Shown: one piece after another, positions 21,105-53,289 of the stretch
Numbering within the stretch: the first letter of the stretch is position 1
Layout of the letters: each line of letters opens with the position of its first letter
Assembly: GCA_949152475.1 (NCBI GenBank)
Contig: OX424570.1
Location: forward strand, 17,914,694 to 17,978,693
Reading direction: 5' to 3'
DNA length: 64,000 nucleotides
DNA from: Terebella lapidaria
Lineage: Eukaryota; Annelida; Polychaeta; Terebellida; Terebellidae
Translations under genes and position numbers: made by a program
The notes under the pieces: generated by a model
The model's input: only the letters and a program-made list of their open reading frames with translations
What the model was told of the DNA's origin: nothing
The model's database searches: none

Positions 21105-23775
21105 TACATGATGGGGGTATGTTTTCTGACCGTCCGACAGTCCGACTGCAGACATCTCAATACTAAAGGGTGCACTGATTTCTTTCCGCGAGCATCCGAC
21201 TGCAGACAATGATATACTACATGATGGGGCACGTTTTCTGACCGTCCGACAGTCCGACTGCAGACAGCTCAATACTAAAGGGTAAATTAATTTCCTTCCG
21301 CGAGCATTCGACTACAGACAATGATATAGTACATGATGGGGGCATGGTTTCTGACCGTCCGACCATCCGACTGCAGACATCTCAATTCTCAATACTAAAG
21401 GGTACATACATTTCCTTCCAACCTTCCGACTGCAGACAATGATATAGTACATGATGGGGGCATGTTTCTCTACCGTTTGACCATCCGACTGCAGACATCT
21501 CAATACTAAAGGGTACATACATTTCCTTCCAACCTTCCGACTGCAGACAATGATATAGTACATGATGGGGGCATGTTTTCACACCGTCCGACCATCCGAC
21601 TGCAGACATCTCAATACTAAAGGGTACAGGGATTTCGTTCAGACCATCCGACTGCAGACAATGATATAGTGCATGACGGGGGCATGTTTTCAGACCGTCC
21701 GACAGTCCGACTGCAGACAGCTCAATACTAAACGGTGAATTGATTTCCTTCCACGACCAACCGACAGTCCGACTGCAGACAATGATATAGTACATAATGG
21801 GGGCATAATTTCACACCGTCCGACCATCCGACTGCAGACATCTCAATACTAAAGGGTACAGGGATTTCGTTCAGACCATCCGACTGCAGACAATGATATA
21901 GTGCATGACGGGGGCATGTTTTCTGACCGTCCGACAGTCCGACTGCAGACAGCTCAATACTAAACGGTGCATTGATTTCCTTCCACGACCAACCGACAGT
22001 CCGACTGCAGACTATGATATAGTACATAATGGGGGCATGTTTTCACACCGTCCGACCATCCGACAGCAGACATCTCAATACTAAAGGGTACATACATTTC
22101 CTTCCAACCTTCCGACTGCAGACAATGATATAGTACATGATGGGGGCATGTTTTCAGACCGTCCGACCATCCGACTGCAGACATCTCAATACTAAAGGGT
22201 ACATACATTTCCTTCCAACCTTCCGACTGCAGACAATGATATAGTACATGATGGGGGCATGTTTTCAGACCGTCCGACAGTCCGACTGCAGACAGCTCAA
22301 TACTAAACGGTGAAATGATTTCCTTCCACGACCAACCGACAGTCCGACTGCAGACAATGATATAGTACATAATGGGGGCATGTTTTCACACCGTCCGACC
22401 ATCCGACTGCAGACATCTCAATACTAAAGGGTACAGGGATTTCGTTCAGACCATCCGACTGCAGACAATGATATAGTGCATGACGGGGGCATGTTTTCTG
22501 ACCGTGTGGCAGTCCGACTGCAGACATCTCAATACTAAAGGGTGCATTGATTTTCGCCCGCGACCATCCGACTGCAGACAATGATATAGTACATGATGGG
22601 GGCATGTTTCTCTACCGTTTGACCATCCGACTGCAGACATCTCAATACTAAAGGGTACATACATTTCCTTCCAACCTTCCGACTGCAGACAATGATATAG
22701 TACATGATGGGGGCATGTTTTCACACCGTCCGACCATCCGACTGCAGACATCTCAATACTAAAGGGTACAGGGATTTCGTTCAGACCATCCGACTGCAGA
22801 CAATGATATAGTGCATGACGGGGGCATGTTTTCAGACCGTCCGACAGTCCGACTGCAGACAGCTCAATACTAAACGGTGAATTGATTTCCTTCCACGACC
22901 AACCGACAGTCCGACTGCAGACAATGATATAGTACATAATGGGGGCATAATTTCACACCGTCCGACCATCCGACTGCAGACATCTCAATACTAAAGGGTA
23001 CAGGGATTTCGTTCAGACCATCCGACTGCAGACAATGATATAGTGCATGACGGGGGCATGTTTTCTGACCGTCCGACAGTCCGACTGCAGACAGCTCAAT
23101 ACTAAACGGTGCATTGATTTCCTTCCACGACCAACCGACAGTCCGACTGCAGACTATGATATAGTACATAATGGGGGCATGTTTTCACACCGTCCGACCA
23201 TCCGACAGCAGACATCTCAATACTAAAGGGTACATACATTTCCTTCCAACCTTCCGACTGCAGACAATGATATAGTACATGATGGGGGCATGTTTTCAGA
23301 CCGTCCGACCATCCGACTGCAGACATCTCAATACTAAAGGGTACATACATTTCCTTCCAACCTTCCGACTGCAGACAATGATATAGTACATGATGGGGGC
23401 ATGTTTTCAGACCGTCCGACAGTCCGACTGCAGACAGCTCAATACTAAACGGTGAAATGATTTCCTTCCACGACCAACCGACAGTCCGACTGCAGACAAT
23501 GATATAGTACATAATGGGGGCATGTTTTCACACCGTCCGACCATCCGACTGCAGACATCTCAATACTAAAGGGTACAGGGATTTCGTTCAGACCATCCGA
23601 CTGCAGACAATGATATAGTGCATGACGGGGGCATGTTTTCTGACCGTGTGGCAGTCCGACTGCAGACATCTCAATACTAAAGGGTGCATTGATTTTCGCC
23701 CGCGACCATCCGACTGCAGACAATGATATAGTACATGATGGGCATGTTTTCTGACCTTCCGACCATCCGACTAAT
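21105..23775. repeat. Satellite array, ~114-bp monomers, with 1142-bp higher-order unit
   Basis: Monomers of about 110-120 bp carry two copies of a CCGACTGCAGAC core (PstI site) with CAATGATATAGTACATGATGGGGGC and TCTCAATACTAAAGGGT segments between them. From about 21430 the order of variant monomers repeats almost exactly after 1142 bp. For example, the variant GGGGGCATGTTTCTCTACCG is at 21455 and 22597, and GGGGGCATAATTTCACACC is at 21799 and 22941. Ten monomers therefore form one higher-order unit, present twice (about 21430-22571 and 22572-23713). Monomers near 114 bp (38 codons) keep the minus strand open over long stretches; I do not regard this as coding. A related array in opposite orientation is at 37560-38805. 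Confidence 0.9.
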
Positions 23776-24107
23776 TAATGTCATTAAAAATAAATCTGCA
23801 GTAGGCCCATGTTGTACGGGAGCTCACCTTGTGTCATTGCACATATTACATCCATATAAGCATACACCATTTATAAATGTATTTTACATTTCATCACACA
23901 ATATCGATGACAAAAGGCCATATGTCAAAGTGTATGACACTTTACACAGTTTTGGTACCCTACTGAAGTGTACATTTAGTACCTCCTGAAAATCTGACTA
24001 TCCGACAGCAGGCAATCATATGACGCTGGATTTCCTGTCACGCATTATTTCGTTACATCTGACTAATAGCAAAAAACATGATTTTCTTGATTTTCATCTT
24101 GTTTGTG

Positions 24108-24123
24108 TTAAAGTACTAGGAAA
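24108..24123 (+). repeat. Left TTAA target duplication and 12-bp TIR
   Basis: TTAA at 24108-24111 is followed by AGTACTAGGAAA at 24112-24123. It is the exact inverse complement of 32882-32897. The match extends one base outward (G at 24107, C at 32898), which may be chance. Confidence 0.8.
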
Positions 24124-24264
24124 ATCGCTCTGTAACTGCTTCTGTATTGAAGCATTTTATTATTAAAGAAGCAATCATGCAGGTGTGACAATCGTATGAA
24201 GCATAATTAATTAATTAATTAGGAAAATAAAGGCAATTTCCGATGTTTGCCGAACCACACTTCC

Positions 24265-24311
24265 GAGCGCGGGGAAAAAGCGTCACGTGACCTGTGACGT
24301 AGCGGGGGGAA
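24265..24311 (+). promoter_or_regulatory. Promoter-proximal module of the ballast gene
   Basis: Within 90 bp upstream of the ATG lie GCGCGGGGAAAAA (24267-24279, E2F-like), the E-box palindrome GTCACGTGAC (24282-24291), and TGTGACGTAGCGGGGGGAA (24293-24311). The last matches 17 of 19 bases of the sequence upstream of the THAP start codon on the other strand, at almost the same distance from that ATG (44 versus 45 intervening bases). Transcription-factor names are inferred from consensus only. Confidence 0.5.
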
Positions 24312-24355
24312 GAGAGAAGTTTGACAGCAACATTTTCCAACTAGCTGTCAACAGC

Positions 24356-26288
24356 ATGGATTCAGACAATGACTCGGCGCTTTGCGAGTTGCAGCTTGAG
24401 TGTGACGTTGAAGAATTTGAGTCTGGGGCTGGTCATGGTAGATCTAGTGAAGAAACTGCTGGTCGATCATACGAGATTGAACCATATCGATTTGAGCCTG
24501 TTGATGATGATGTTTCGAGTTCGGTCGGTACCACTGTCACTACCAGTGAATCGAGTGAATCAGAAGAGTCCGGGTCTACAGACGGTCAGATTGCCCAGGG
24601 ACAGATCAACGAAGTCCATCGACAAGACCGCAGTGTGGATGGTCACGCAGTGGATTCATGGTAGGCACTTTGCAGTATTCACAATACAGCTGGCCAGTCC
24701 ATGGCTTTGGTCCACTGTCATGTGAGTGTGTCAGTGTGGGTTGCTCGGTAACAGGTAACAGCAGTTGGTAACTGTGACTGTGTGTTGAGAACAAAATCAT
24801 CATCAGATTTTATTCCATTTTTAATACCAAGTTTTTATTTTTACAAATAAGTCAAGAATCTAGATATCCCAGATTTAGAGACTTGTAAAGTAATAAACTG
24901 ATAGCTACAGTATTGAATCAATTTCAATTTTGCTAGTCCATAGTTGTTCTCCCAGCAGGATGCGGTAGATGTATGGAATAGACATGTCTACTCATTAGCT
25001 GCTGCTCTCTATCAGTTGTCTATGCACCAATATCGTCCACGATGCCAAACAAGCCTATATTTGTGTGTGGCTAACCAGTGTAACCCCATGCTAATGCTGT
25101 ATAAACATGGTTTATACTTTACGACAATTAAAAAAATTGAGATATTTAATCAAAATTATTAGATTTCGATAGCATGGTCTAGTGTGATAGCTTGTTTTTT
25201 CAATGTCATGCACATCATGTGTAGTAACAAGACAATGACATATCAATGATTGACAGTTTTTATTGGTGGAAAAATCTTTTGTATATATAAAATTACATAC
25301 AATCATAATTATCATACTCGTGTGTCACTGAACTGTTCATACGGTCTCTGTACAACAACAACCTACCATGAACATGAATGAATACTTGATGAATGGTATG
25401 CATAGTAATACCGTCTTCACTGGTACTTATCACATCAGTTCAATTGCTTAATTGCCTAAAACAAGGCAAGCAAGTCTGTTGCAAGTAGTATTTTTAAAAA
25501 AAATACAATCTAGGCATGTATGATGAGATGACAATGGAACTGTCTCTGTACAATGAATGAACATGATGAATGATCCATTTACTACATATATGTTTACAAA
25601 ATTACTGGTACCAATCACATCTAACATGCATTCTTTCACTTCTAACACATGTGATGCACTCGACCAGTAGATCACACATCATTAACATACCAGTTCCATG
25701 GGAGAATGTTTTATTGTTGTACATTGAACATGATGAATGCTGAACACAAAGTCCGGACACTGACCAATACCTATCTTGATATATATGAATTAGTATGTCA
25801 CATTCTTACATAATTTTTACACACATCATGATCTGTAGGATTGCATTTCTCTACAATATCTGTAACCTATTTACAGGTGCACGTGTGGGAGCTGTGAAAG
25901 GATGGCCACAAACAGGGAGTGTGTGTGCTGCCTGGAGATTCCCCAGGTGGTACATGAGCTCGAGGAAGTTGCACGCGAGACTGGGGGTCCTGTGCCTGGC
26001 TGCATCACTAACCATCCGGGATTTGATGGCGTCTGCCTCAATGTGTGGGTGCTGAGGAACGCCTGGCGGGAGTATAGGAGTCAGTACCGGAACCCAGAAC
26101 AAGGCCCACAGCACAAGAGGTACCGGCACATAGCGTACCGCCAGCTAGTCCGGCTGGTGTGGAAGTATTTGGGGAGGTATGTACGTGTGCCGCTACCTTC
26201 TTGTGCTGTAACAAGAATCAGGGCCAGGTTTCCCAACCCTGATCCTAACGACAGCGATAGAGGCTTCCAGGATCCAGTCCTCAACTGA
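24356..26288 (+). CDS. P2X7 C-terminal (ballast-type) domain protein, two exons
   Basis: Exon 1 is 24356-24660 and exon 2 is 25877-26288. The donor is ATG|GTAGGC and the acceptor TTTACAG|G. The two exons join inside a TGG codon, giving 238 residues. The N-terminal ~100 residues are acidic and serine-rich, with a Y-R-F-E-P motif. The junction creates W-C-T-C-G-S-C (residues 102-108), followed by E-C-V-C-C-L-E (116-122), C-I-T-N-H-P (144-149) and a basic Y-R-H-I-A-Y-R-Q-L-V segment ending near R-I-R-A-R-F-P. These are the hallmark cysteines and blocks of the domain that forms the intracellular ballast of vertebrate P2X7, which binds zinc and guanine nucleotides. There is no channel part and no membrane segment, so this is a stand-alone soluble protein. 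It lies convergent to a transposase within one element. Its role there is unknown. The first ATG was chosen; no earlier in-frame ATG exists. Confidence 0.85.
24661..25876 (+). other. Intron of the ballast gene
   Basis: This GT...AG interval carries no recognised gene. It holds three loose copies of a CTGTACAA...GAACATGATGAATG motif near 25345, 25545 and 25715. Confidence 0.7.
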
Positions 26289-26365
26289 AGCACAATAATG
26301 TGATACATTCATATATTCTCCCGTTTGGTACTCTGACAACAATGCATGTCCGTCAAATCGCAGGC

Positions 26366-27055
26366 CACCAAGTATCTACGGGACATTGATCCAGTCAGGA
26401 CCCCCTGTGTGCTAGGGACCACCAAGTATCTACGGGACATTGATCCAGTCAGGACCCCCTGTGTGCTACGTACCACCAAGTATCTACGGGACATTGATCC
26501 AGTCAGGACCCCCTGTGTCCTAGGGACCACCAAGTATCTACGGGACATTGATCCAGTCAGGACCCCCTGTGTGCTAGGGACCACCAAGTATCTAAGGGAC
26601 ATTGATTCAGTCAGGACCCTCTGTGTGCTAGGGACCACCAAGTGTCTACGGGACATTGATCCAATCAGGACCCCCTGTGTGCTAGGGACCACCAAGTATC
26701 TACGGGACATTGATCCAGTCAGGACCCCCTGTGTGCGAGGGACCACCAAGTATCTACGGGACATTGATCCAGTCAGGACCCCCTGTGTGCTAGGGACCAC
26801 CAAGTATCTACGGGACATTGATCCAGTCAGGACCCCCTGTGTGCTAGGTACCACCAAGTATCTACGGGACATTGATCCAGTCAGGACCCCCTATGTGCTA
26901 GGTACCACCAAGTATCTACGGGACATCGATCCAGTCAGGACCCCCTGTGTGCTAGGGACCACCAAGTATCTACGGGACATTGATCCAGTCAGGACCCCCT
27001 GTGTGCTAGGTACCACCAAGTATCTACGGGACACTGATCAAGCCAGAACCTCCAG
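26366..27055 (+). repeat. 54-bp minisatellite, about 12.7 copies
   Basis: Twelve full units run from 26366 to 27013 with a partial thirteenth. The period is exactly 54 bp (18 codons), so one frame stays open on each strand. On + the unit reads KYLRDIDPVRTPCVLGTT. Units differ by one or two bases. The array begins about 78 bp after the ballast stop codon and ends about 55 bp before an AATAAA at 27110, so it probably lies in that gene's 3' UTR. Coding use is possible but unsupported. Confidence 0.9.
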
Positions 27056-27109
27056 AATGCGGCTGATAATCTAAAGCTCTCATTTGTCAACATTGTCAAT
27101 GTCAACATG

Positions 27110-27115
27110 AATAAA
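27110..27115 (+). terminator. Candidate polyadenylation signal AATAAA for the ballast gene
   Basis: AATAAA lies 822 bases after the stop codon, just beyond the minisatellite, in the ballast gene's orientation. No transcript end is known. Confidence 0.4.
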
Positions 27116-27119
27116 ACAA

Positions 27120-27960
27120 TTGTTCACTTGACTAAATATTTGTTTTACAATACTAGTATCCTTTGCATCCTGTGCAACAGTGCAAGTATATACCAGTAAA
27201 TCACAATAACTCCCACTTGATTATTTCCCGGCTTAGTTTCCATACAATCAGAGATTTATCTTGTTCACTACATTTTGCCAGTATTGCCAGCAAACACAAT
27301 TTGGTCGAAATTATTGAACTGGATACATGTACAAACGGTGCAGTGCAAAACCGAACAATGCTATCGTGAAAATATTCACTCTGCACGAAAAACTTCCTTT
27401 TAGCATTGTTTGTAGACAGACAAATGACTTCTTATACACAATAATACTTGTAATACAAATCATGAATATTCATATGCACTATCGAATGACCTGACCTCCA
27501 TATTGCTCACTAGAAGACAATAATCATCTAAGGTCAATTCAGTGTTTTTCCAAGCGTTATGTCTGTAGATACCATATTACCAATTTACATCTTTCAGATT
27601 TGATATGACCTTATTAAATGTGAATTACTGATCAATGTCATCTGATGTAAAGTTGAATTTTCACCAAAAAAATCGGTCCTAGATATACGAATGTAAGCTC
27701 TCATGGCTGGGAAACTGAAAATTAGTAATCGATCAGGTAACATAATGCATGTACATTGAAAAATGTTGATTGAGAAAACAACTTACTTTAATACGTTCCA
27801 CAAAACATTGTTTTGCTCAGAACTTTACTAAATGTTAAATAGTCACTAGCACAAAAAATGAAAAGCAGACTAAAACAAATATTAAGTGGCGGAATAAGTC
27901 CAAGTGAAATAATGAAAAAATTATTAAAAGGTGAAATAAGTCTTATTGGAATAATGGCAA
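27120..27960. other. Convergent intergenic interval; no gene seen
   Basis: This lies between the 3' ends of the two convergent genes of the element. It is AT-rich with no motif recognised. Confidence 0.6.
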
Positions 27961-27963
27961 TGT

Positions 27964-30900
27964 CTAAGTTCTTGGGTATCTTGACACGTAATTGTTGACC
28001 AGGTCTTGTTTGTTTGCTCGCTCGTACTGGTCTGCCAGTGGCTTTGGTGAGGGATCCAGGGCATCACGTTCCCGGCCAATTGAGTCCACAACTTCCGTCA
28101 GAAGAATGTTTGTGTAATCTGGGAAGAAATAAGAAAAATTACGAAACAAATTTGAAGGGACATCAAGGACCTGGCAACCAAAATTAATTACTCATACTGT
28201 AAAAAGAGCGTATCTTCAAAATGACTGGAAAGTCATGCATACATGTAATTTTTGGGATAATTTAAAGCCAATAATTATTGGTCAGGGTTGTATTGAAAAT
28301 ATTAACAAGTAATGATCGTGTACAACAAACCGTAGTTGGGCTCAGCCATGATCCTGGACACAGCAGGAGCACCTCTCTTGTATTTTGGGTACTTGAGGAC
28401 AAACTCGAGAGCACCGTCCTTGTTCCTGGCCTGTGTCCTGGCACTGTTAAAGTTGTGGTGGATAGCAGCAAGCTGTAGTCTGAAATTGCAATGAATTTTT
28501 TACATGAATCCTGCGAATCTCAAGTTTCATTCTGTTGTGGTTATTTACAAAATGGAAAGTTATTTTTGGTAAAAGTTCAGAATTAATATTAAAGTGACCA
28601 AAATTTGATGACTGATGTGAATTGTACGGCATATACAGTCACAACAGTCAAAAAGGTGTAGGACACTCATTTCTCCTCATAAAATTGTTATGAAAATTTT
28701 GATACCAGTAGCTATTCGCAGGCTTACCTGCTAAGCATTGCCTGGTACCCAAAATGGTACATTTTGGGTGCAAAATGATTAAGGGTACTGTGATACCCTT
28801 CCAGTATAGCAGTTTGGCCTGAAGGTGACAGCTTCCTAATATCTTTCAACAACAGCGTTGCGTCCAGGATATCGGTCACTTTCACATACACATCCGATCC
28901 TGCAATTAAAATTTATATATTATATCTTCAACTGTCGAGCAAGTTATGTGCAAAGTGAAACGTACATGGTGTCACCGGAGTGCATGTTTACATTTACATT
29001 TGTATTACCGGGATCAAACCAAGGTTTCCTTGTTTGGCCGTCCAGGTCTGGGTGGAGACACCGGGGAAACAGTGGCCCGAAGTCCTCGTGGATGTTCGCC
29101 AAGTGCTGGCTGAGGCTCTTCCACTTGGCCACGGCGAGCTCACTGTCCCCATTGCTGCTCGTGGCGACCCAGTACATGTGGTTGATTATGCCTCTGATCC
29201 ACCGCGACACCAGTGACATGCCACTCTTTTTGGCCAAAGCCTCAAGCTTCTTCAATAAACCTGTTATAACCAAATAATCAATGAGGCTGATGATGAACCT
29301 GTCGTATGTGTTTCAGACAGAAATTTCCAATTATTCAAGGACCCATGAAACCGAAGACAAACTACACATACACGTAATATGTGTAGTTTTACGTGGGAAC
29401 AGCTTTGTTTTCACTATTACCCAGCACTAAACATCTACAAAATATATATGATTATGATGTACATCTACACTTAATGCCACCTTTTGCAACGTGCCAGATG
29501 TCGTAGTAGTGGGTCACGTCTGCCCACTTCTCCCTGACCCACTTCTGTATTTGGACGTGGCGATCTGTCACCAGGACCTTGACCTTCACGTTGTTCTCAT
29601 CCAGCAGAGCCTTCGTGCGTTTTAATCCCTCCAGCTCCATGTGATATGCCCCGCCAACTTCGTTGCTCTTAGAAATTAGAATTTTACATGTACATTTATA
29701 CATGATGCACAGAAATACTTCATTTCAATTACATGACATAAAAGATCCACAAAGAAACAAATCTCTAAGCATTCAGTTACATGAACAATCTAGGTCACTG
29801 CTGAAAGTATCAAGGCAGCTTTGTTGAGGGTCAATAGTACACTAGTGTAACATATTGACTTGAAACCTCAGGCCTCCAATCACATAGTTAGTAGAATGAA
29901 AATGTAACTGAATGTCAAAGGGTAAATATTCTCCTACCTGATCAATGTTCTCATTTAATCAATATCACCTGAGCGTTGAACTAAGCAGTAGTTACCGCCC
30001 AGCTAAAAATATAGGCCGAAGGACTCTCTCGAGACGATGACCCAACGAAAGATGGCAACACTGTTAGATAAAAGAAAGGCAACAATAAAACAAAGAGAAC
30101 AGTCAAAACAAATCAACAGGTGTATTTACCTGCACAAGCTGCACATGAACGATCTTCTTGGAGTCGAGGTTGATGACAGTGTAGCTGCCATACTTGGCAG
30201 AGTGGCCCATCGAGTCACACCGCCCGTCTCCACCTAAGACCATCCCTTCGCCAGGAGCACTGGAGAGGAGATTCTGCTGTTCCCGGGTCCAGACCTTTCT
30301 CACTGCCTGGTTCAGGTGCAAGCGCTGGTGTCGGTAAAAGGTCTGCCTGCTGGGAACTGGAATACGGATCATCTTAAACATGCGCAACGTCATGCTGGGG
30401 ACAGAGCCTGAAAACAGGATGGCAGCCGACAACAAGAGGTTCCCTGCTGGCATGTCTCCCAGGAAAGGCTGGCTGCTCCACTGGTTTGTCGCACCACACA
30501 GATCGCAGAGCTGGCTGATACAAACAAAAGTTCCAACCACACTGGTGACTGTTCCCTTGGCAGTGGCTCTGCCACAACCCATGCACAGCCGGAACAGGGC
30601 CAGGAGCATGCTCTCGAACACAAGAAACTTTCGTTCCTCGTGTGGCTTGGTCACGTCTTCCCTAAAAAGCGACAGACAACTGTTCTGTTGCAAATCTTGC
30701 AATCATTGATAATTTTTCTATTCTTGGTCTGTTGCAAGTAGTGAAAGACCGCTGAAACCTGAATTATTACATTACCTTACAACGAAGTGGTAGATTTCAG
30801 TTACATCAACAGAAATAAAGATAGCTCAGATCAGCTTGAAACTACATTAATTTAGTACATGTACTAGCATCTACTGCGCACAGATTCCAACAAAATTTGA

Positions 30901-31170
30901 ATTGGCATAAATTTGTCTGTTGCTGAGTATTAAAATATACATTTCTGTGGGAAACTGCAACTGCCATATATTTGTTATCTGGAATTTATTGGAAACACAG
31001 ACTGCAGGCTACAAGATATACTCACCTGACACTCTCATCATCAGAATCTGACTGTTCTACGTCTGATTCCTCGTAGTCCATGTCTGAGTCTGAGTCCTCA
31101 TCTTCTGGTTCGTCAGGGGCCTCAGACCCCATACTGTGGTCCTCCAGCTCATCTTGGTCTGTTCCTCGGT
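27964..31170 (-). CDS. Kolobok-like transposase, multi-exon
   Basis: Exons, in minus-strand order: about 31170-31026, 30661-30130, 29667-29481, 29260-29009, 28899-28728, 28479-28331 and 28118-27964. Every junction is GT-AG and every phase fits, leaving one frame to the TAG at 27966-27964. The first exon is very acidic (D-S-D-S-D-M-D-Y). The second has a C-x2-C pair (C-M-G-C ... C-D-L-C-G-A) and the block G-D-G-R-C-D-S-M-G-H. The third has V-T-D-R-H and D-I-W-H-V-A-K. Later exons give L-E-G-Y-H-S, F-A-P-K and A-A-I-H-H-N. I read D of G-D-G-R and D of T-D-R-H as the first two catalytic acids and D-x2-H as the signature shared by several cut-and-paste superfamilies. The last acid may be E of L-E-G-Y-H. 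The role would be DNA cleavage and strand transfer at the TIRs. The 5' limit of the acidic exon is uncertain. Confidence 0.82.
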
Positions 31171-32404
31171 CTGTTCCGATCGTGGACGCCAGAAAAAAAA
31201 GATATTTCTTTTCTAAAACCGCTAGAAATCTTAAATTTCAACACCCAGCCCACAACTCGCTCACTCGGAACTCGCAACAGGCAACTCGCAACACGCATGT
31301 CCTATAACGCATGTCACCATGGTCACAGCACGCATATCGCAACTTGTAAGACGCATGTCGCAAGTCGTGGCGCTTCACGCAAGTCACATCACGCAAGTCG
31401 CATGTCGCCACTCGCAAGTCGTGGCCGCACCGGAATTCCATAGGAGGGGTGACCGATCGTTGTGCCTTATATTCACCTATTCAGGAGCAGGCCCAGTTCA
31501 ACCGCAGGTCAAGTTCAACCGCCAGCAGGCCAAAATCAACCGCCCATGTAATCTTGCATAAACACAGGCAATCAAGCATGATACATGATATCTCTTCTAC
31601 CATGGGCCATTGCTTCAATCATCAATGATTATAATCTAAAACATGGACCCGGGCAATTGATGCAAGATCATCACGCTGGATGCAATTAGAAATGTCACCA
31701 GTTTCGATGGAGCAGGCCCAGTTCAACTGCAGGTCAAGTTCAACCCCCAGGTAAAAAAATGAGTGTTAATGTCAATTAATGTGGCAGACAAGTCATTTCT
31801 CCCAAGCAGACTGATCATGATCCCAGGCAGAGATGTCAAGTGTGTTTGTTCTATACCCTTTAGCATGTTCAGTAGGCTTTACTATCCAGCTACAAGAACC
31901 CAGCACACCAAACCTTACCCAAACACACTTTATTTCTAAAGTAATTCACAAAATCATTGAATTGCAATTGTACCCAAACACACTTTTTTTCTAAAGTAGG
32001 CCTAATTCACAAAATCATTGAATTGCAATTGCATCCAGCCCAAAATTGTCAACATTTTGTATGTGCTTGCATGTTGTGATAACATGTATCATGCCTGATT
32101 GCCTGTGTTTATGCAAAATTACATGGTCGGTCGAATTAGGCCTGCCGGCGGTTGAACTTGGCCTGCGGTTGAACTGGTCCTAAAGACCTAACCCTATATT
32201 CAGGGCTAAGGGCCTAAGGTGCTCCCTAAATTTTGTTGGATGCATGGAACTTTTAGAGCAAATCAGTTGGTGAGCGATAATGGGGGTCACTTTTATTACG
32301 TATGCCTATGGATGCGTCCATGTTAATCAAATATTGGCTAAAGTTCATCTATAGAACATATAATTATCATTTGTAGGTATTTTCCAATAAATTTCGAGAA
32401 AAAC
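31171..32404 (-). other. Presumed intron between THAP exon and acidic exon
   Basis: A nested inverted-repeat element occupies 31482-32187. At 31250-31430 there are loose repeats built from CGCAACTCGCAA and CGCATGTCGCAAGTCG. The donor at 32405 leaves a phase that does not match the simplest acceptor near 31170, so a small exon or another donor may be missing from my model. Confidence 0.5.
31482..32187. mobile_element. Nested inverted-repeat element (~100-bp arms)
   Basis: The left arm (about 31482-31590) and right arm (about 32085-32187) are inverse complements at roughly 90%. They share CAGTTCAACCGCAGG, CAAGTTCAACCGCC, CATGTAAT and TTGCATAAACACAGGCAATC. Inside are a third partial copy of the arm start at about 31710-31750 and a ~55-bp tandem duplication around ACCCAAACACACTTT (31917-32040). 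It encodes nothing. It is probably a MITE-like insertion in the transposase intron. Confidence 0.75.
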
Positions 32405-32637
32405 CTGGTTTTGAAGCCTATTTCTAGGCCGACACTCGTGTTCTCTACGAAGCAATCCGATGCGAAGTGGGCACTGCAAATGGTCGAGTGCTCCGTGTTT
32501 GTCAGCCAATCCTTCCTGCTTGTGGCCACAAAACGATTCCACGCACGGTTAGCAAGCGTTTCTTTTGGGAACAAATGCATTGACACGCCATTTTTGTGCG
32601 TATTTCCGCATCCAAACACGATGCAACGTTTCCCCAT
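32405..32637 (-). CDS. THAP-type zinc-finger exon (probable transposase N-terminus)
   Basis: From ATG 32637 the minus strand encodes the start of a THAP domain, a sequence-specific DNA-binding C2CH zinc finger. The zinc ligands fit: C5, C10, then C54 and H57 (C-S-A-H-F). Conserved neighbours are present: H-L-F-P-K at 21-25, W33 and F36-V37. The usual AVPT-type end of the domain is not in this exon, so it must be supplied downstream. The likely donor is ACCAG|GTTTTT at 32405. In Kolobok-type transposases a THAP domain precedes the catalytic core, and this exon lies 1.2 kb upstream of that core on the same strand, so I join them by inference. It could instead be a separate small THAP gene. Confidence 0.75.
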
Positions 32638-32682
32638 TCTGGCTGCAGAAGGGGAACCACCGGAGCTGTTCGAACTGAATCG

Positions 32683-32743
32683 TTCCCCTTGCTACGTCAC
32701 ACTGGCGGAAACAGCCGAAGGCGAATAAATTTGGCGGGAAAAA
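32683..32743 (-). promoter_or_regulatory. Promoter-proximal module of the THAP/transposase gene
   Basis: Upstream of ATG 32637, on the minus strand, is TGTGACGTAGCAAGGGGAA (32701-32683), matching the ballast promoter in 17 of 19 bases. Further upstream, on + at 32730-32743, is TTTGGCGGGAAAAA, a consensus-grade E2F-type site. Function is inferred. Confidence 0.5.
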
Positions 32744-32881
32744 CAGCATGCTTGTATTTCAATCAATTAGCTAGGGATAATTACCATTAACTCTTAATCA
32801 GATTTGTTTCTATGTGCGGTTTTCGTCAGAAACGACAAAAAATACATTATTTCGTCATTTTTCACCGCAAGTTCGGCCAAG

Positions 32882-32897
32882 TTTCCTAGTACTTTAA
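32882..32897 (-). repeat. Right 12-bp TIR and TTAA target duplication
   Basis: TTTCCTAGTACT (32882-32893) then TTAA (32894-32897). It is the exact inverse complement of 24108-24123. Confidence 0.8.
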
Positions 32898-33011
32898 CTG
32901 AACTATCGAATGGAACTATTAAACACTTCAACGCTCATCTTGTTCTGCATGAAAAAAGATAATTACGCACCAATGAGCTATAGAACAATATCTTATACAA
33001 GTAATTTGGTC

Positions 33012-34939
33012 AGACGTAACATGACACCGGAACAAAGTTTGCAGCTCTTATTTGAAGAATGATGTACCTATTTTAAATTCAGTTATAACTCCTTCTATAT
33101 CTCCGCTACATATTCTGTGAAAATGTGCATAACGAAACACATTTTTCGTTATGTACACAGGTGAAGTACATCAAAATAAGTGACAGATGTAACAGGACGC
33201 TAAAATACTTTTTAAAGTAAATATATGTGCATACAAAATCTTTTTAACCATGAAATGTAAGTTTGAATCTATTACCTCCAAAATACAGCCAAATTTTGAT
33301 GATTTCAATAATAAACGCAAAACACAACATTTTGCAATAGAAACAAAGCCCGACCAAATACTTTATCAAAAGACACACTGGCGTCATCAGGGGCAGACAG
33401 TGTGGTAAATGTAGTTGTTTCTACTGTACACCTGATGGTATTAGTATACAACTGCCCAACAACCTATGAATATAATTTGGAAATCCGAAACAAACCCCAT
33501 GGAATAGATATATGACAAGTACATAAGTACCTAATCACAAGCCAAAAGGCTATGATGGTTTTTCTTGACGAAATCAAGCGTAATATTATTTTCAAACACA
33601 TATGGCAATTATATTTCAAATGAATTTCAGGGAAAAGGCCCATAAAGAAATTCGCGTCCACGTTACGTCTAATGATGGGGACGACATAACGAGGATAACA
33701 CATTTTGGAGTCTTCGTTACATCTGCAAATGTCACACCAGTTTATGATTCTTTGATCATTTATCATGAATATAACAGTGTGATATGTAGGATTCACAATA
33801 CAAAAAGTCAGAAGGTGTAAAGAAGTGGATAGAGCGTGGAATGTTGAAAATACAATAAAATAAATAAATTGTCCAGATGTAACCATGACTCGTTGTGTCC
33901 ATGTTACGTCGAAAATGAAATATTCCATGTTACGTCTTCGCATAAAAAACATGCAGGCAGAACAGAGAATACGTCTGATATTATACACATTCAGAAAGTC
34001 GAGATGTAACAAGGACACCAACATCGTGTCTCTGTTACGTCTTGTGGCTGATTTCACATAGTGGCGTGAACACTCCCTATGCCCGATGACTAGTTACTGG
34101 CAATGGGATCCATTTAATTCATATAGCGTGATGTGATTCTGAATGCGCATAACACACAATCGGATGCTGGGATATAATGATAAATATGGCTAGATGTAAC
34201 ACGGACGCAAACGACTGCACAACCCATCGTTATTTCAAGCGAATTTGGTCAGATGTAACTATACTATTTCGGCCCTTTTGGAGGGCACCCTCACCGGGTC
34301 GATGTGCTCGTAGTTCGCAGAGGAAAGAAGGCAAGTGGGTCGCATGTATTCAAACCCATTGCTGGCAGTCGGAACAGTTGTAAAATACATTGATGATAAT
34401 AATAAAAAGTTAAGTAGTGTTTGTGGTGAACCATCACATAATATGAACTTATGTGATTGTGTAAAGATCTGTCTGGCCATATTTTGTGTATAAGTGATCA
34501 ATATCCTCTATATTTCTTTTCAGTGGATTTGAACTTATTTATATTTCCATTTAAATCGTCTGTTTTGATGCAATTGTCAGACGTAACACGAAGGACACGA
34601 AGCGTTACGTCTTAGACATTGGCAAATAATATCTAAATTTTATATTGAAAACTATCCACGTGTAAATATTACCTCGAAAACCAAAAAGTATGTCTACACT
34701 GCTACATAAGTCTTATTGAACAAAGCCTGAAGGAAGGCACTATTGAAAAGACACGAAAAAAATAGCCATTGTCCTATAAATTTCCTAGGTCTTATGACGT
34801 TCTTCTTCATATGCCTCGACAATTTTATTTATAAGCATGGGAAGTTATTTCCCAATAATTTTTTTACATTGTCAGAAACTGAATCAAGATAATCTGTGTT
34901 GTAGATAACAAAATGGCACGCATTTTACACAGACGTAAC
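33012..34939. repeat. Irregular cluster of AGAYGTAAC motifs, 14 sites
   Basis: AGAYGTAAC occurs on + at 33012, 33185, 33875, 34002, 34192, 34251, 34579 and 34931. Its inverse GTTACRTCT occurs at 33662, 33716, 33929, 34034 and 34604, with a one-mismatch site at 33903. Several sites extend to AGAYGTAACANGGACRC. Spacing is irregular (25 to 480 bp), both strands are used, and the sequence between sites is not repeated, so this is not a tandem array. It starts about 120 bp outside the right end of the Kolobok-like element. Confidence 0.8.
33282..33500 (-). repeat. Partial copy of the 364-bp dispersed repeat
   Basis: AACATTTTGCAATAGAAAC, AAGACACACTGGCGTCATC and CAACTGCCCAACAACCTATG match the 58268-58995 units with scattered changes. 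It lies inside the motif cluster. Confidence 0.7.
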
Positions 34940-36210: not shown

Positions 36211-37515
36211 ATATGTGATTGTCGTTGACCTCACCCTATGTATCTCCTGTCTTCCGATTTCTCCGGACGACTCTCTTAGATTCAGCATACACTGGTGTGG
36301 GTTTCGCAAATTTGCGATAAAACCCGGTACATCCCGTTAAACTGATCGAAGAACACTGCTGGCTTTAATGTATTAATAACAGTAATTGCATGACAATGGA
36401 GAGCGCTGTTTTGAATTAGTTTGCGGCTGGTATGCGCAAGTGCAATTACCGAATCTCCTACCAGTTATCTTGGAACTCGCATAAGTCTGACCTGGTTTAA
36501 TTACTATAATTACCTATATTACTACGCCAACACGTAACCAGTAGAAATATGTTGTATTGCAGCGATGGACAGTGATACATTAGTTGTAATCATTTCAGAC
36601 AATAGTTTGAAATTCTCTTTCCGAATTGATTTCATTGTATCAGGCCTATTAGGCTACTTCTCTGAATATCACTGGGGATTATTTGTAGGCAATGAGCTTA
36701 GTCTATAGCATAATGAATGTGAAGCATGAAAATTGCTTTACAAGCGCGACCGCATTAAATAGCCAAGACCACCGTGACGAAGCCGAGCTTTTACCGTACC
36801 CCAGTCGTTGAAATAATTAGCTAATAAAGGCATAATTTTCCTATTTTATATGAACCCTATTATATAATTTTATTATTCCCAGGGGCCTAGGGTGCAGAAA
36901 CTACACATCTATTCATTGTAATAGGCCTAAACGTATTCATCAAATCCTGCCACCTGTTTATAAATATTTAAAGGGAGTGGAAATTCGTTTTTGTGCATCA
37001 TTCATGATAGGCTGTTATGCCCTATCGATAATTTTCTTGCATATCTACGGGAAGGGGTTAGACCCGACCAGATTGCGGAAAGTGTTAAGAAGATTATAAA
37101 GGCGCTTTGTGTATACCCATAGTGATGTTTGGAGGATATTGGTAATGCGGGATTTTAAACTAGAAGGTTCAGAGTTCTGGGGCGACTTATGGAACTGGAA
37201 TTCAGTGGGATGTTTTTAACAGAGCCCGGCTAGCAATCTTGGTATCTGACAAAGATACAGTACATCTAAATAGACTTGGGGGAGATGAATTGGCTGAGGA
37301 TGCACACAATTTCAACACAATTTCCCATATCATTTACTTTGATGTGACTGATTGTCTGACTTTCTATATGAACTGCATACATATCGGTATGACTTATTCA
37401 TATGGAAATAAAATGTGTACCCAAGTTTTATGGGACATCTTCTTACAATGTGAACTCGACATTGAGTATTGTGAGTCCATAGAAAACATGTAAATATAAA
37501 AGGGCCGGGTTTTCT

Positions 37516-37539
37516 GCCATGTTTTTCTAAAAACATGGC
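37516..37539. repeat. Perfect 11-bp-stem palindrome at the array border
   Basis: GCCATGTTTTT and AAAAACATGGC are separated by two bases, 20 bp before the satellite array starts. A GGGCCGGGT sequence lies just upstream, as also at 36203. Confidence 0.7.
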
Positions 37540-37559
37540 GTTATACTTGTATACTATAT

Positions 37560-38805
37560 CTTTGTCTGCAGTCGGATGGTCTGAACGAAATCAATGTACC
37601 TGTTAGGTTTGCGATGATTGCAGTCGGACTGTCGGACGGTCAGAAAACATACCCCCATCATGTACCATATCATTGTCTGCAGTCGGATGGTCTGAACGAA
37701 ATTAAAGTACCTTTTAGTTATGAGATGTCTGCAGTCGGACGATCAGAAAACATGCCCCATCATGTTCTATATCATTGTCTGCAGTCGGATGGTCTGAACG
37801 AAATCAATGCACCGTTTAGTATTAAGCTGTCTGCAGTCGGACTGTCGGACGGTCAGAAGACATATCCCCATCATGTACTATATCTTTGTCTGCAGTCGGA
37901 TGGTCTGAACGAAATCAATGCACCCTTTAGCATTAAGCTGTCTGCAGTCGGACTGTCGGACGGTCAGAAAACATGCCCTCATAATGTACTATATCATTGT
38001 CTGCAGTCGGATGGTTGCGGAAGGAAATCAATGCACCCTTTAGTATTGAGATGTCTGCAGTCGGACGGTCAGAAAACATACCCCCATCATGTACTATATC
38101 ATTGTCTGCAGTCGGACGGTCTGAACAAGATTAAAGTACTTTTTAGTTATGAGATGTCTGCAGTCGGACTGTATCATTGTCTGCAGTCGGATGGTCGCGG
38201 AAGGAAATCAATACATCCTTCAGTATTGAGATGTCTGCAGTCGGACTGTCGGACGGTCAGAAAACATACCCCCATCATGTGCTATATCATTGTCTGCAGT
38301 CGGATGGTCTGAATGAAATTAATGTACTTTTTAGTTATGAGATGTTTGCTGTCGGATGGTCGGACGGTCAGAAAACATGCTCCCATCAGGTACTATATCA
38401 TTGTCTGCAGTCGGGTGGTCTGAACGAAATCCATGTACCCTTAAGTTCAGTATTGAGATGTCTCCAGTCGGACTGTCGGAAGGTCAGAAAATATGCCCCC
38501 ATCCTTTACTATATCATTGTCTGCAGTCGGATGGTCTGAACGAAATCAATGTACCTTCTAGTTATGAGATGTCTGCAGTCGGACTGTCGGGCGGTCAGAA
38601 AACATATCCCCATAATGTACTATGTCATTGTCTGCAGTCGGATGGTCTGAACGAAATCATTGCACCCTTAAGTTTAGTATTGAGATGTCTGCAGTCGGAC
38701 TGTCATGACTGTCGGATGGTCAGAATACATACCCCCATCATTATTATATCATTGTCTGCAGTCGGATGGTCGCGGAAGGAAATACATGTAAATGCACCCT
38801 TCAGT
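37560..38805. repeat. Satellite array 2, inverse orientation to the 21-kb array
   Basis: About eleven monomers of 100-120 bp with GTCTGCAGTCGGATGGTC and GACTGTCGGACGGTCAGAAA. They are more diverged from each other than those at 21-24 kb, and no higher-order period was noticed. The long plus-strand open frames correspond to the minus-strand ones of array 1 and are treated as a by-product of the repeat. Confidence 0.85.
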
Positions 38806-38852
38806 ATTAATAATAATAATAATATTAATAATAATAATAATATATATATATA
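38806..38852. repeat. AAT/AT microsatellite
   Basis: Runs of AAT units pass into (AT)n immediately after the satellite array. Confidence 0.85.
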
Positions 38853-39381
38853 TTACATTTTTAAAATGTGTGGAGTAAGATACGCTACATGGGCCACAAA
38901 GTGTAACTAGATTAATCCGTTGAGATTCATGAAGGTGAAGTCTAGGTTCATGTTTTGTCAGTTTCGGGAATCACATACGGTGCATTTTTGGTGACCTTCA
39001 ACTTGGCCTATTTTCATATGCAAACCAGTGCGAAGGTGATGACTACGTAATCAAACATCACCGAAACTCGGTAGCACTTGCCAAAATTAGGTGGCCTCAA
39101 TAGTTATCACCCCGAATGTCACCCAACACGAATACCAAACTGTCGAAATATGAAAAATATAATTTTGATGTGTCCATATGTGAGCGTACGATCTCGGCCC
39201 CTAATATTATACTTCTCTAAATTCCAAGATAATTTTTTGAAAAATCACCGTCAAATGCTTATTACTACAAATAATTCAGATCAATGATACACATGGTTTA
39301 TATAACAGCCCTAAAAGAAACGTGAGACTATTCCATGTCTAAATTGTACTGAATATCCAGTCAATCCGAATCAGATCTCAA

Positions 39382-48439: not shown

Positions 48440-49846
48440 TTACACTCCCAGAATGTCAATCTCTCGCAGGCCAGGGTTGCCTATTCGGCTACAGCCATCG
48501 TGGAGATCCAGTCTCAGGAAAGTCGTCCTTATATTTGGTACCGTCATTTCGTTGATGGCTAACCCAATGCACGCTGCAGGATCGTCTCCGGGAATATTCC
48601 ATGGTCCATCGCAAACGAACGGCATCTAGGAAAGGGAGTGAATCATGAATGTTGTGGTTTCCAACGACAGCATACGATCGTAATATCTGATCAAATTGCA
48701 ATATGGAGATGGTAGGAATGAACGACTCGAAATTGCTCTCAACATAGTGACTCATAAAAAATGTAGAGATCATGTTCTCACTGTCAGAGTAACTCCACTG
48801 CTGAAGGTAAGGGTAGTGCCTCTGAACTGATCAGCCTGGTGGCATCTGTTCCACACCGACACTGATACAATCAGAGTTTCATCTGGGAAGTTTACCACCA
48901 ACCAGGCACCTGCATTCTCTGCAACTGATGCCCAGGCAGTTTCGAAACCGGGGTTATAATTCCCGTCATACACGGCAGAGCAAGAGTAACCAGGGTAAGT
49001 TGACGAAGCATTACATGTGATGCCTCGTCTCTTGCTCAAATCATCCAGGATGGATGCTGAAAGGTCGAATAATCATTACGATAATTAAATGCTAAATTCT
49101 TATAAAAAAAGAAACCAAGATGAACTAACAAATGTTCAATGCATTATCAAGATGAATCAACAACGATTCCAAGACGCAGTAATAAATCGATGCTAGTACT
49201 AAATTGAAATTCATTTCAAGACATATATTTCGTTTCTTTAATGGGAGCATTCATATTATCCATGAAGTTATGTACACGTATAGAAGTACGAATATACATT
49301 GTTTCAAAAGAAAAATATTCTGGATTGAATCAACAAATATCATCCATAGTTACTTGCATCATTTAAATAGGCATTCAACAGCGCCCATGATTAGCTTCGC
49401 ATCATATTTCTTTGAACCCAAAAAGTTCTCATCTTGGATATTTGATGTTTTTGGAGCTGAATGGTAATGAATAGCCCTGAATTGAAGAACATACCATGGA
49501 TATAATTCGTGTGATATATATAAATACCTCTTTGTCTGATAATAGCCCGACTGCCTGCGGAAAACACCAAGTCCTTTACTTCAGCCCGTAGAAAAATTTC
49601 ACACACATACATGTATGACCCTGAAAGTTGAGTATTCAGAAAGTTGGCCCCCTGGCACTCGAACACAGAGGTACAAAAAGCCGCACAGTGCGTTGTACTC
49701 GTCACATCTATTGCAACCATCGATGGCTGCGTAGAAAATATTTCATCTTTGAAAACTTGAAACATGTCAAAATTAAAACTTTCCACACCATATCCTAAAT
49801 TAATTTTCAGAACCAGAACAACTCCACCTATCAACGGCATATACAT
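48440..49846 (-). CDS. Secreted PAN plus discoidin-like protein B, three exons
   Basis: Exons are 49846-49528, 49056-48782 and 48625-48440 (259 residues). Intron positions and phases are the same as in gene A; exon 2 is again exactly 275 bp. It has a signal peptide (G-G-V-V-L-V-L-K-I), PAN-like cysteines around F-E-C-Q-G-A-N-F, then the discoidin-like domain with C-N-A-S-S, G-A-W-L-V-V-N-F and G-L-R-E-I-D-I-L-G-V. The exon-2 start is set by the TTTCAG acceptor, not by any ATG. No break is seen, so it is probably functional. It is 1.9 kb from paralogue C. Confidence 0.8.
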
Positions 49847-49899
49847 TGTTGAGATTTTGATGCAAATACAGACTGCGATGTGCTGTGGACTGTTTTAAA

Positions 49900-51724: not shown

Positions 51725-53222
51725 TTAGACCCCTTGGATGTCAACCTCTCGCAGGCCAGGATTGCCTGATTGGTTACAAGCATTGTGTAGATCCAGTCTC
51801 AGGAAAGTCGTCCTAATATTTGGTACCGTCATTTCATTGATGGCTAACCCTGTGCATAGTGCAGGGTCGTCTCCGTTACGGACATTCCTTGGTCCGTCGC
51901 AAACAAATGGCATCTAACAAGAGAAAGTTAGCAAGGAATAGGTATCACGTTTAAAACATGTGTTCCACTACTGTGATGTATGATAAAATGACAGGTATCG
52001 TCTCCCTACCGTCATAGTAACCCCCGTGCTGAAGGTAAGGTTTGTGCCTCTAAACTGGTCAGGCATTCCGCATCTGTTCCACACCGACACTGATATGATC
52101 AGGGCCTCTACTGGGAAGTTTATCACCAACCAGGCACCAGAATGTTCGCGAACTGACGCCCAGGCAGCATTCTGGCCAGGTCCATAATCCCGATCATAAA
52201 CATCAGAGCAGGCGTAAGCATCGTGGGCTGACGAAGCGGTACATGTGATGCCAGCTCTCAGGTTGACATTTTCCAGGATGGATGCTGAAGTGTTCATAAA
52301 TCATCGCTATACTGACTGTTGCATATGCTAGTGATCCGGTTTTGCCAGTGCTGTAGGCACAGTAGTTTGCATTAGCAACACGCGTCGTGATATAAACACA
52401 TCAGGCTAGATTGAAGGCAATAACAGAAATTGTTAACCCACCCCAAAGAAAAAGCGTAATCATTGCTGGGGAGTAATACTCAGAATTATGTCAGATAGAA
52501 GCCACCGTAGAACCTTGTATCTCCATAATCAAATATTTTATTACCATGGACACGCCGGCGAATCTGAGCAACACCTGCAAGTGTTTGCTGCGAAAATCAA
52601 CATCAACACTCACCTGCGCCAGATTGTCATGTTGAAGGCAAGTATTCACTGGTGAGGTTAATTAACTATGAAGTTTATATGCAATCAGAAATTAAAGTAT
52701 GGCTAATTGTCATATTTCCTGTTTGCATGACAACCATTCCAACCGATGTATACTAAAAACAGAGAAGGTAAGCAATGCTGGCTAGAAAACATTCATAATA
52801 AGTTTCGAGTCGATTGATCATTTCTGCCTGATTTTTATGGGTATACAGAGTGACGAACAATCATAGAGACATATTTTAACAATCTGAGCAAATACCAACA
52901 AACTCGTACCTCTTTGTCTGATTATGACTTGATTGCCTCCAGAAGACATCAAGTCGTTTGCTGCAGTTCGTGCAAGTAACTCGCATCCATATAAACCAGA
53001 CGTTTTGATTCCGTTGACATTTGCTCCTTGACATTCATACATCGAGGTACACTTTACTGCACATTCTATTACACTTGTGACTTCCAACGTCACCAAAGGT
53101 GGTGGGGAAATGACTTTTTCATTCTTAAGAACTTGGTTGTTTTCTGTTACGAAATTCTCCGCAGCACTTCCATAGTATATTTGTATTATCAGAAAATGTC
53201 CAACTATCATTGGGAAAAGCAT
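51725..53222 (-). CDS. Secreted PAN plus discoidin-like protein C, three exons
   Basis: Exons are 53222-52910, 52284-52010 and 51913-51725 (258 residues). Architecture, phases and exon-2 length (275 bp) are identical to A and B. I place the start at ATG 53222, because it opens directly into a signal peptide (M-L-F-P-M-I-V-G-H-F-L-I-I); the frame is open farther upstream but from a GTG. The PAN part has C-A-V-K-C ... Y-E-C-Q-G-A-N-V. The second domain has C-T-A-S-S, G-A-W-L-V-I-N-F and G-L-R-E-V-D-I-Q-G-V. Likely a secreted or surface lectin-like protein; the ligand is unknown. Confidence 0.8.
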
Positions 53223-53289
53223 TGTTCTGATACTGCCACACAACGAAACTCCACCGTTCACAGTATTCAGAGCTCACACGAGAAGAGTT

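Follow-up and report, generated by a model that had tools for sequence, protein, structure and literature searches.

A Kolobok transposon of Terebella lapidaria that carries a gene for a P2X7-like ballast domain beside its transposase

Why should a gene for a stand-alone ballast domain, the zinc-cluster domain of the cytosolic tail of P2X7, lie next to a transposase gene between two perfect inverted repeats? The locus in question occupies part of a 64,000-nucleotide stretch of the Terebella lapidaria genome (assembly GCA_949152475.1, 761.6 Mb; contig OX424570.1, positions 17,914,694 to 17,978,693 of the forward strand), hereafter the window, in which all coordinates given without a contig label are counted. 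Taken together, the evidence makes it highly probable that the locus represents a Kol0-type Kolobok DNA transposon in which the second gene encodes KolX, a stand-alone ballast (zinc-cluster) protein that would act as a cofactor of transposition. The identity of the element as a Kolobok with KolX is, on its own, near certain.

The unit that spans both ends, with both genes within it, inserts at TTAA and duplicates this tetranucleotide. Its boundaries are the following, the target-site duplicates being assigned from the sequence and from the single TTAA at uninterrupted sites:

24108 to 24111, no strand: left TTAA target-site duplicate
24112 to 24123, plus strand: left 12-bp terminal inverted repeat, AGTACTAGGAAA, which starts with AG, the 5'-RR of Kolobok
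32882 to 32893, minus strand: right 12-bp terminal inverted repeat, a match to AGTACTAGGAAA
32894 to 32897, no strand: right TTAA target-site duplicate

Between the two TTAAs the element measures 8,782 bp (24112 to 32893). Exactly two matches to AGTACTAGGAAA exist in the window, each abutted on its outer side by TTAA, and none of 100 shuffled windows contained two, in agreement with the perfect 12-bp termini and outer TTAAs noted in a first-pass annotation made from the window sequence alone. A 293-bp query from the left end detects six places in the assembly, three of them at 98–100% over its full length. Besides the window copy, full copies are present on contig C13 (31928699-31940429, 11.7 kb) and contig C1 (93433213-93445230, 12.0 kb); each carries the two genes between the same termini, is bordered by TTAA left and right, and lies in different flanking sequence. 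In the C13 and C1 copies, 140 of 140 residues of ballast exon 2 agree with the window copy, and exon 1 is 97–98% identical. The genome contains 21 occurrences of the exact 16-base sequence formed by TTAA and the adjoining end, as against one for a reversed-pattern control, and six of them delimit the three full copies.

Empty sites were sought with queries of 304 bases in which the two flanks of a copy were joined across one TTAA. For the window copy, 42 matches were obtained among those listed (40 of 52 candidates scored), and at least 13 of them cover at least query positions 2 to 304 uninterrupted, at 87–99% likeness. For the C13 copy there were eight matches, one of which spans all 304 bases at 99% and lies 54 kb away, where it may be either a duplication or an allele left unmerged. 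The empty sites of these two copies, the two that were tested, place the ballast gene inside a unit that inserted whole at TTAA. The first-pass annotation had proposed to look for further copies with the same termini and both genes, and for empty sites, and had named, as an outcome that would speak against it, copies whose ends leave the ballast gene outside; both genes lie inside all three full copies, no such boundary is found among them, and the ballast gene is accordingly mobile with the element. The window copy sits within a repeat, its flanks (23958-24111 and 32898-33047) belonging to one repeat family.

The ballast gene runs on the plus strand, its two exons joined by a GT-AG splice into an open frame of 238 amino acids, and is followed by a minisatellite:

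24356 to 24660, plus strand: KolX (ballast) exon 1, with an acidic N-terminus and no Pfam match
25877 to 26288, plus strand: KolX (ballast) exon 2, with the ballast domain and seven conserved cysteines; stop codon at 26286 to 26288
26365 to 27050, no strand: minisatellite of 54-bp unit, 12.7 copies, 95% match, just 3' of the ballast stop codon

The open stretch 25866-26288 matches Pfam P2RX7_C (PF20478) with an E-value of 4.3e-8 and 33.7 bits, over the curated cut-off of 23.5, which bears out the earlier description of a stand-alone ballast-domain gene inside the ends. The other two full copies of the element have a shorter minisatellite array, and frames of 245 (plus strand) and 193 (minus strand) amino acids are open across much of it.

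At the level of sequence, the homology of this domain with the cytosolic tail of P2X7 is clear. Among 11 aligned KolX exons of the host genome, which are only 27–60% identical to that of the window at the protein level, 17 columns are invariant, and seven of these are cysteines present in all 11 sequences, corresponding to the seven zinc-ligand cysteines of the P2X7 ballast domain. A profile of the 11 exons run against the sequences of the PDB returned four matches at E-values up to 10, all of them P2X7, the best at 8e-25. The cysteines of the W-C-x-C-x2-C, CC, C-I-T and P-S-C motifs align with those of the P2X7 ballast or zinc-coordinating cysteine domain (PMC7016195, cited here and below from available portions of its text), as do R-H-x-A-Y-R and R-I-R. 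In the guanosine-nucleotide site, as read from the alignment, the equivalents of R546-H547 and R578 are kept in the window protein and the residues aligned to R574 and K583 are changed. H547 has been stated not to be found in invertebrates (Rump 2020, PMC7016195); the R-H pair equivalent to R546-H547 occurs in 7 of the 11 aligned KolX sequences. P2X7 is more similar to another family of the host genome (37.8% identity) than to that of the window (28.1%), and its position in a tree, between groups of KolX, is weakly supported (59/59) and leaves the donor KolX undecided. In contrast to P2X7 receptors, in which a P2X channel is fused to the ballast domain, KolX is not fused to a channel. A ballast-P2X fusion elsewhere in the host genome was considered and rejected: a single P2X locus was found (six exon matches, contig C1, 30.90 Mb), and the nearest ballast match lies 3.6 Mb from it.

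The transposase gene lies on the minus strand, convergent with the ballast gene, and consists of a THAP exon, an acidic exon and six more exons, with in-frame GT-AG splices from the acidic exon through the stop codon:

32405 to 32637, minus strand: THAP exon, start codon at 32637, end placed from splice context
31026 to 31160, minus strand: acidic exon, its 5' part missing in the window copy
30130 to 30661, minus strand: exon with the first D (GGDGRxDSxGHSAK, about 30227 by count), placed by conserved residues and an in-frame splice
29481 to 29667, minus strand: exon with the second D (VTDRHV, about 29564) and D-x2-H (DIWH, about 29501), both by count
29009 to 29260, minus strand: exon with an H2CH zinc-finger-like motif between D-x2-H and E
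28728 to 28899, minus strand: exon with the predicted third catalytic residue, E (LExxHSxxNHFAPK, about 28800 by count)
28331 to 28479, minus strand: exon, in-frame splice
27964 to 28118, minus strand: last exon, in-frame splice, holding the stop codon

The stretch 32338-32691 on the minus strand matches the Pfam THAP domain (PF05485, E-value 3.7e-10). The transposase core remains under the Pfam cut-offs when scanned exon by exon, and once spliced it matches a Mutator-like transposase family barely over the cut-off (27.8 bits against 26.5). The GGDGRxDS, VTDRH, DIWH and LExxHS motifs are kept in comparison with one sibling family and form the predicted catalytic site, in keeping with the THAP/D-x2-H transposase proposed by the first-pass annotation. 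The features described for Kolobok transposases in a Xenopus study (PMC6004289, available in part) are a THAP domain with C2CH, P/W/F and an AVPTIF box, a DDE triad with C/D-x2-H between the second D and E, and a zinc finger between C/D-x2-H and E. The triad with its D-x2-H is present here; H, H and C-x-H are kept within 29009-29260, as a predicted zinc site; and the THAP domain is recognized by its Pfam match, with an AVPTL box in the C1 and C13 copies only. Furthermore, the element shows the 4-bp TTAA duplication of Kolobok, reduced to a single TTAA at uninterrupted sites, and its AG...CT ends conform to the 5'-RR...YY-3' termini by which Kolobok is told from piggyBac (PMC9587614, here and below from available portions of the text). 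The Kolobok identity and TTAA insertion put forward in the first-pass annotation are thereby supported. In such an element, the transposase would bind the ends through its THAP domain and cut with its DDE site.

The window copy is damaged: part of the 5' half of the transposase gene is lost, and the ballast gene is still open. The C1 and C13 copies have more open exon-like stretches between the THAP and acidic exons, together with a longer acidic exon, and one of these stretches, at the expected continuation of the THAP domain, bears the AVPTL box. The window copy has no AVPTL-bearing stretch, and the sequence common to the copies ends at about 31160, inside the acidic exon. Without these internal exons, any movement of the window copy would depend on the protein of another copy. 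The catalytic exon has one stop codon in the C13 copy and none was seen in it in the C1 copy. The description of two convergent multi-exon genes with every resolved junction in frame thus holds for those junctions, for a transposase gene that is incomplete here. Between the THAP and acidic exons, all three full copies also contain a pair of 104-bp inverted arms (31489-31592 and 32078-32181 in the window), 90% complementary and 485 bp apart, perhaps a nested non-autonomous element.

The association of the two genes recurs across the host genome. Pfam P2RX7_C has at least 69 matching places, or at least 65 loci after merging, and the window catalytic exon has at least 144 matches, 107 after merging (150 of 211 candidates scored, transposase counts referring to the matches listed). 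A transposase core of the window type lies within 12 kb of 30 of the 65 ballast loci, convergent in all 30, with 0.22 expected. The addition of a second query, a divergent transposase exon that contributed 46 matches taken at E-values up to 0.01, raises this number to 48 of 65, with 45 pairs convergent, three on the same strand and 0.27 expected; counted from the transposase side, a ballast match is that close at 50 of 134 merged Kolobok-like loci. The pairing that had been noticed at a single locus is hence a repeated one. By DNA likeness, 30 fetched ballast loci fall into seven families plus singles, for a total of nine families when the window family and its nine-copy sibling are included. 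In eight of the nine, family D with a match at an E-value of 5e-4 among them, at least one copy has a nearby transposase match; for the ninth, family G, the link consists of one match at 0.009.

The same-strand layout belongs to one KolX family, with copies on contigs C2, C8 and C273; in a further copy, on C408, the closest transposase match is 41 kb away. The C2 copy (L051 with L029, approximately 7108541-7115850) is bounded by TTAA and perfect 12-bp inverted ends, AGCTGAACTGTC, about 7.3 kb apart, and its right end recurs with two other flanks, one at L030 and L031 and the other at L034. Shuffle controls produced no TTAA inverted-end pair in 20 shuffles of a 9-kb stretch and two in 50 shuffles of 19.7 kb, so that chance is an improbable source of the one perfect 12-bp pair in the 8.6-kb region of the same-strand family; the other copies agree. 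This layout is possibly a new variant of KolX elements. In four stretches of 9 kb, possibly too short for both ends, TTAA inverted ends were not found.

A ballast gene at 26.85 Mb of contig C9 (L018, C9:26852247-26855633) has an open frame of 180 amino acids and ranks second in the genome by P2RX7_C score. It lacks a significant transposase match, and 15 kb of sequence contained no pair of TTAA inverted ends; it could be a stand-alone or domesticated KolX gene, or the relic of an element. The ballast-only copy at C3:11.35 Mb was rejected as a domesticated gene, because its reading frame is interrupted by a stop codon and a frame break, with a gap of 10 residues besides. A sibling element on contig C5, at 29.04 and 30.06 Mb (L009, L010, L014, L015), has the left end AGTACTAGGAAC in two copies that share one flank, perhaps through segmental duplication; its transposase core shows 78–79% likeness.

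Selection on KolX was measured as the ratio of nonsynonymous to synonymous substitution rates (dN/dS, NG86) over exon 2, for which 15 pairs were tried. Ten pairs yielded a value, eight of them below 1 (0.05 to 0.63); two others were unchanged and three were saturated at synonymous sites. Between the window and its sibling the ratio is 0.14, near saturation. For the transposase core, it is 0.09 between the window and the C5 sibling and 0.58, on nine changes, between two C5 copies. On balance, both genes appear to have been under constraint, and this constraint favours a helper over a passenger. The first-pass annotation had left open whether the ballast gene was cargo or helper; that it travels with the element stands, and 'helper' seems the better term, because several families retain the gene alongside the transposase and most of the pairs measured show constraint. 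We consider it fairly probable that KolX is a cofactor of transposition, which might act on the complex of transposase and DNA with its zinc cluster as a scaffold.

Several observations weigh against this interpretation. The case for a cofactor role consists of conservation and linkage. Two close KolX pairs have dN/dS values of 2.4 and 1.5, on five and six changes, and small numbers of changes also underlie several of the low ratios. No ballast match lies within 12 kb of 84 of the 134 merged transposase loci, so that some Kolobok elements are without KolX in their vicinity. A transposase match is likewise absent over this distance from 17 of the 65 ballast loci, at least six of these 17 belonging to families in which a different copy does have one. 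The expected numbers assume uniform placement and ignore the clustering of repeats, of which the strand bias is independent. For the nine-copy sibling family (C17:7.57 Mb), a search of 19.7 kb brought up no pair of TTAA inverted ends, and the C5 sibling keeps its transposase core well and its ballast gene in a hardly recognizable state. On the structural side, the window ballast sequence alone matches P2X7 in the PDB only at an E-value of 0.9, the AlphaFold model is poor (mean predicted local distance difference test 63, predicted template modelling score 0.55), and fold matches are weak: the top eight are P2X7, the best at 0.083 and none at 0.001. The second gene is thus recognized as KolX with a ballast fold by its sequence profile, with a weak three-dimensional model.

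Two of these observations, the transposase loci without a ballast match and the state of the C5 sibling, are also what speaks for a ballast gene that is a mere passenger, caught between Kolobok ends and carried without helping transposition. A passenger is harder to reconcile with a pairing that recurs in eight or nine families, the last depending on family G, that persists despite the low identity of the ballast proteins and that keeps the same convergent layout in 45 of 48 pairs, with KolX constrained in most pairs measured. Published Kol0 elements, moreover, carry KolX (PMC9587614), and we regard the passenger as unlikely. That these are two neighbouring host genes, surrounded by a TTAA-flanked inverted repeat through coincidence or as part of a smaller element, would suit their multi-exon, gene-like structure, for which nothing further was found, and is practically discounted by three copies with identical ends at unrelated sites, by the empty sites and by the shuffled windows. 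An identification as piggyBac, which also duplicates TTAA, is rejected as vanishingly improbable, since the AG...CT ends and the catalytic motifs differ, with D-x2-H between the second D and E, a THAP domain and a Mutator-like Pfam match, and since the KolX-like proteins of piggyBac are described as without most of the seven cysteines (PMC9587614), all of which are present here.

The preferred reading, a Kol0-kind element with KolX as its probable cofactor, agrees with published work. Kol0 (Kolobok0) elements, represented by Kolobok-1_XT, encode a DDE transposase and KolX (Kojima and Bao 2022, PMC9587614), a protein with the ballast fold and seven cysteines, as in P2X7; earlier ballast-like proteins had gone unrecognized as part of Kolobok until then, and P2X7 was proposed to originate from the fusion of a P2X4-like gene with KolX (PMC9587614). 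The association of ballast domain and Kolobok has therefore been known since 2022, and the route suggested in the first-pass annotation for the capture of the domain by a channel gene fits that fusion proposal and was already in print. Likened to Kol0 through its published description rather than through Repbase sequences, the element has in common the TTAA duplicates, the AG...CT ends and a P2X7-tail-like KolX with seven cysteines; it differs in its 54-bp minisatellite and, in the window copy, in the internal deletion, and one KolX family of the host genome has both genes on the same strand. Nanor-like proteins are products of host genes and are said to be domesticated KolX (PMC9587614). In the available portions of PMC9587614 we found no statement on KolX gene layout or on empty sites of a KolX element, and in those of the main text of Rump 2020 (PMC7016195) no mention of transposition or transposons. 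With the link and the fusion proposal published, the conceptual news is small; the present analysis adds uninterrupted target sites, a census of the genome, a family with both genes on one strand and indications of purifying selection.

Stand-alone ballast domains occur here and there among animals, and the link offers a way to explain them, as transposon genes. With three almost identical copies, empty sites and KolX proteins under apparent constraint, the locus provides concrete material for the study of KolX function, which bears on the role of the P2X7 tail. A tentative extension is that a deep set of Kolobok families, represented here by eight or nine of them in two layouts, has long relied on KolX as an obligate cofactor, and that P2X7 took its ballast ready-made from such a cofactor. 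If so, the zinc cluster of the ballast would have been acquired along with a portion of the guanosine-nucleotide site, and the unexplained biochemistry of the P2X7 tail could become readable from transposition.

Outside the element, a long tandem array (22000-23772, periods 111/232/343) adjoins its left end, and repetitive open frames resembling this array extend over 21385-23527 and 37500-38907. Two open frames on the minus strand, at 49394-49894 and 52821-53273, are alike by eye, with matching cysteines.

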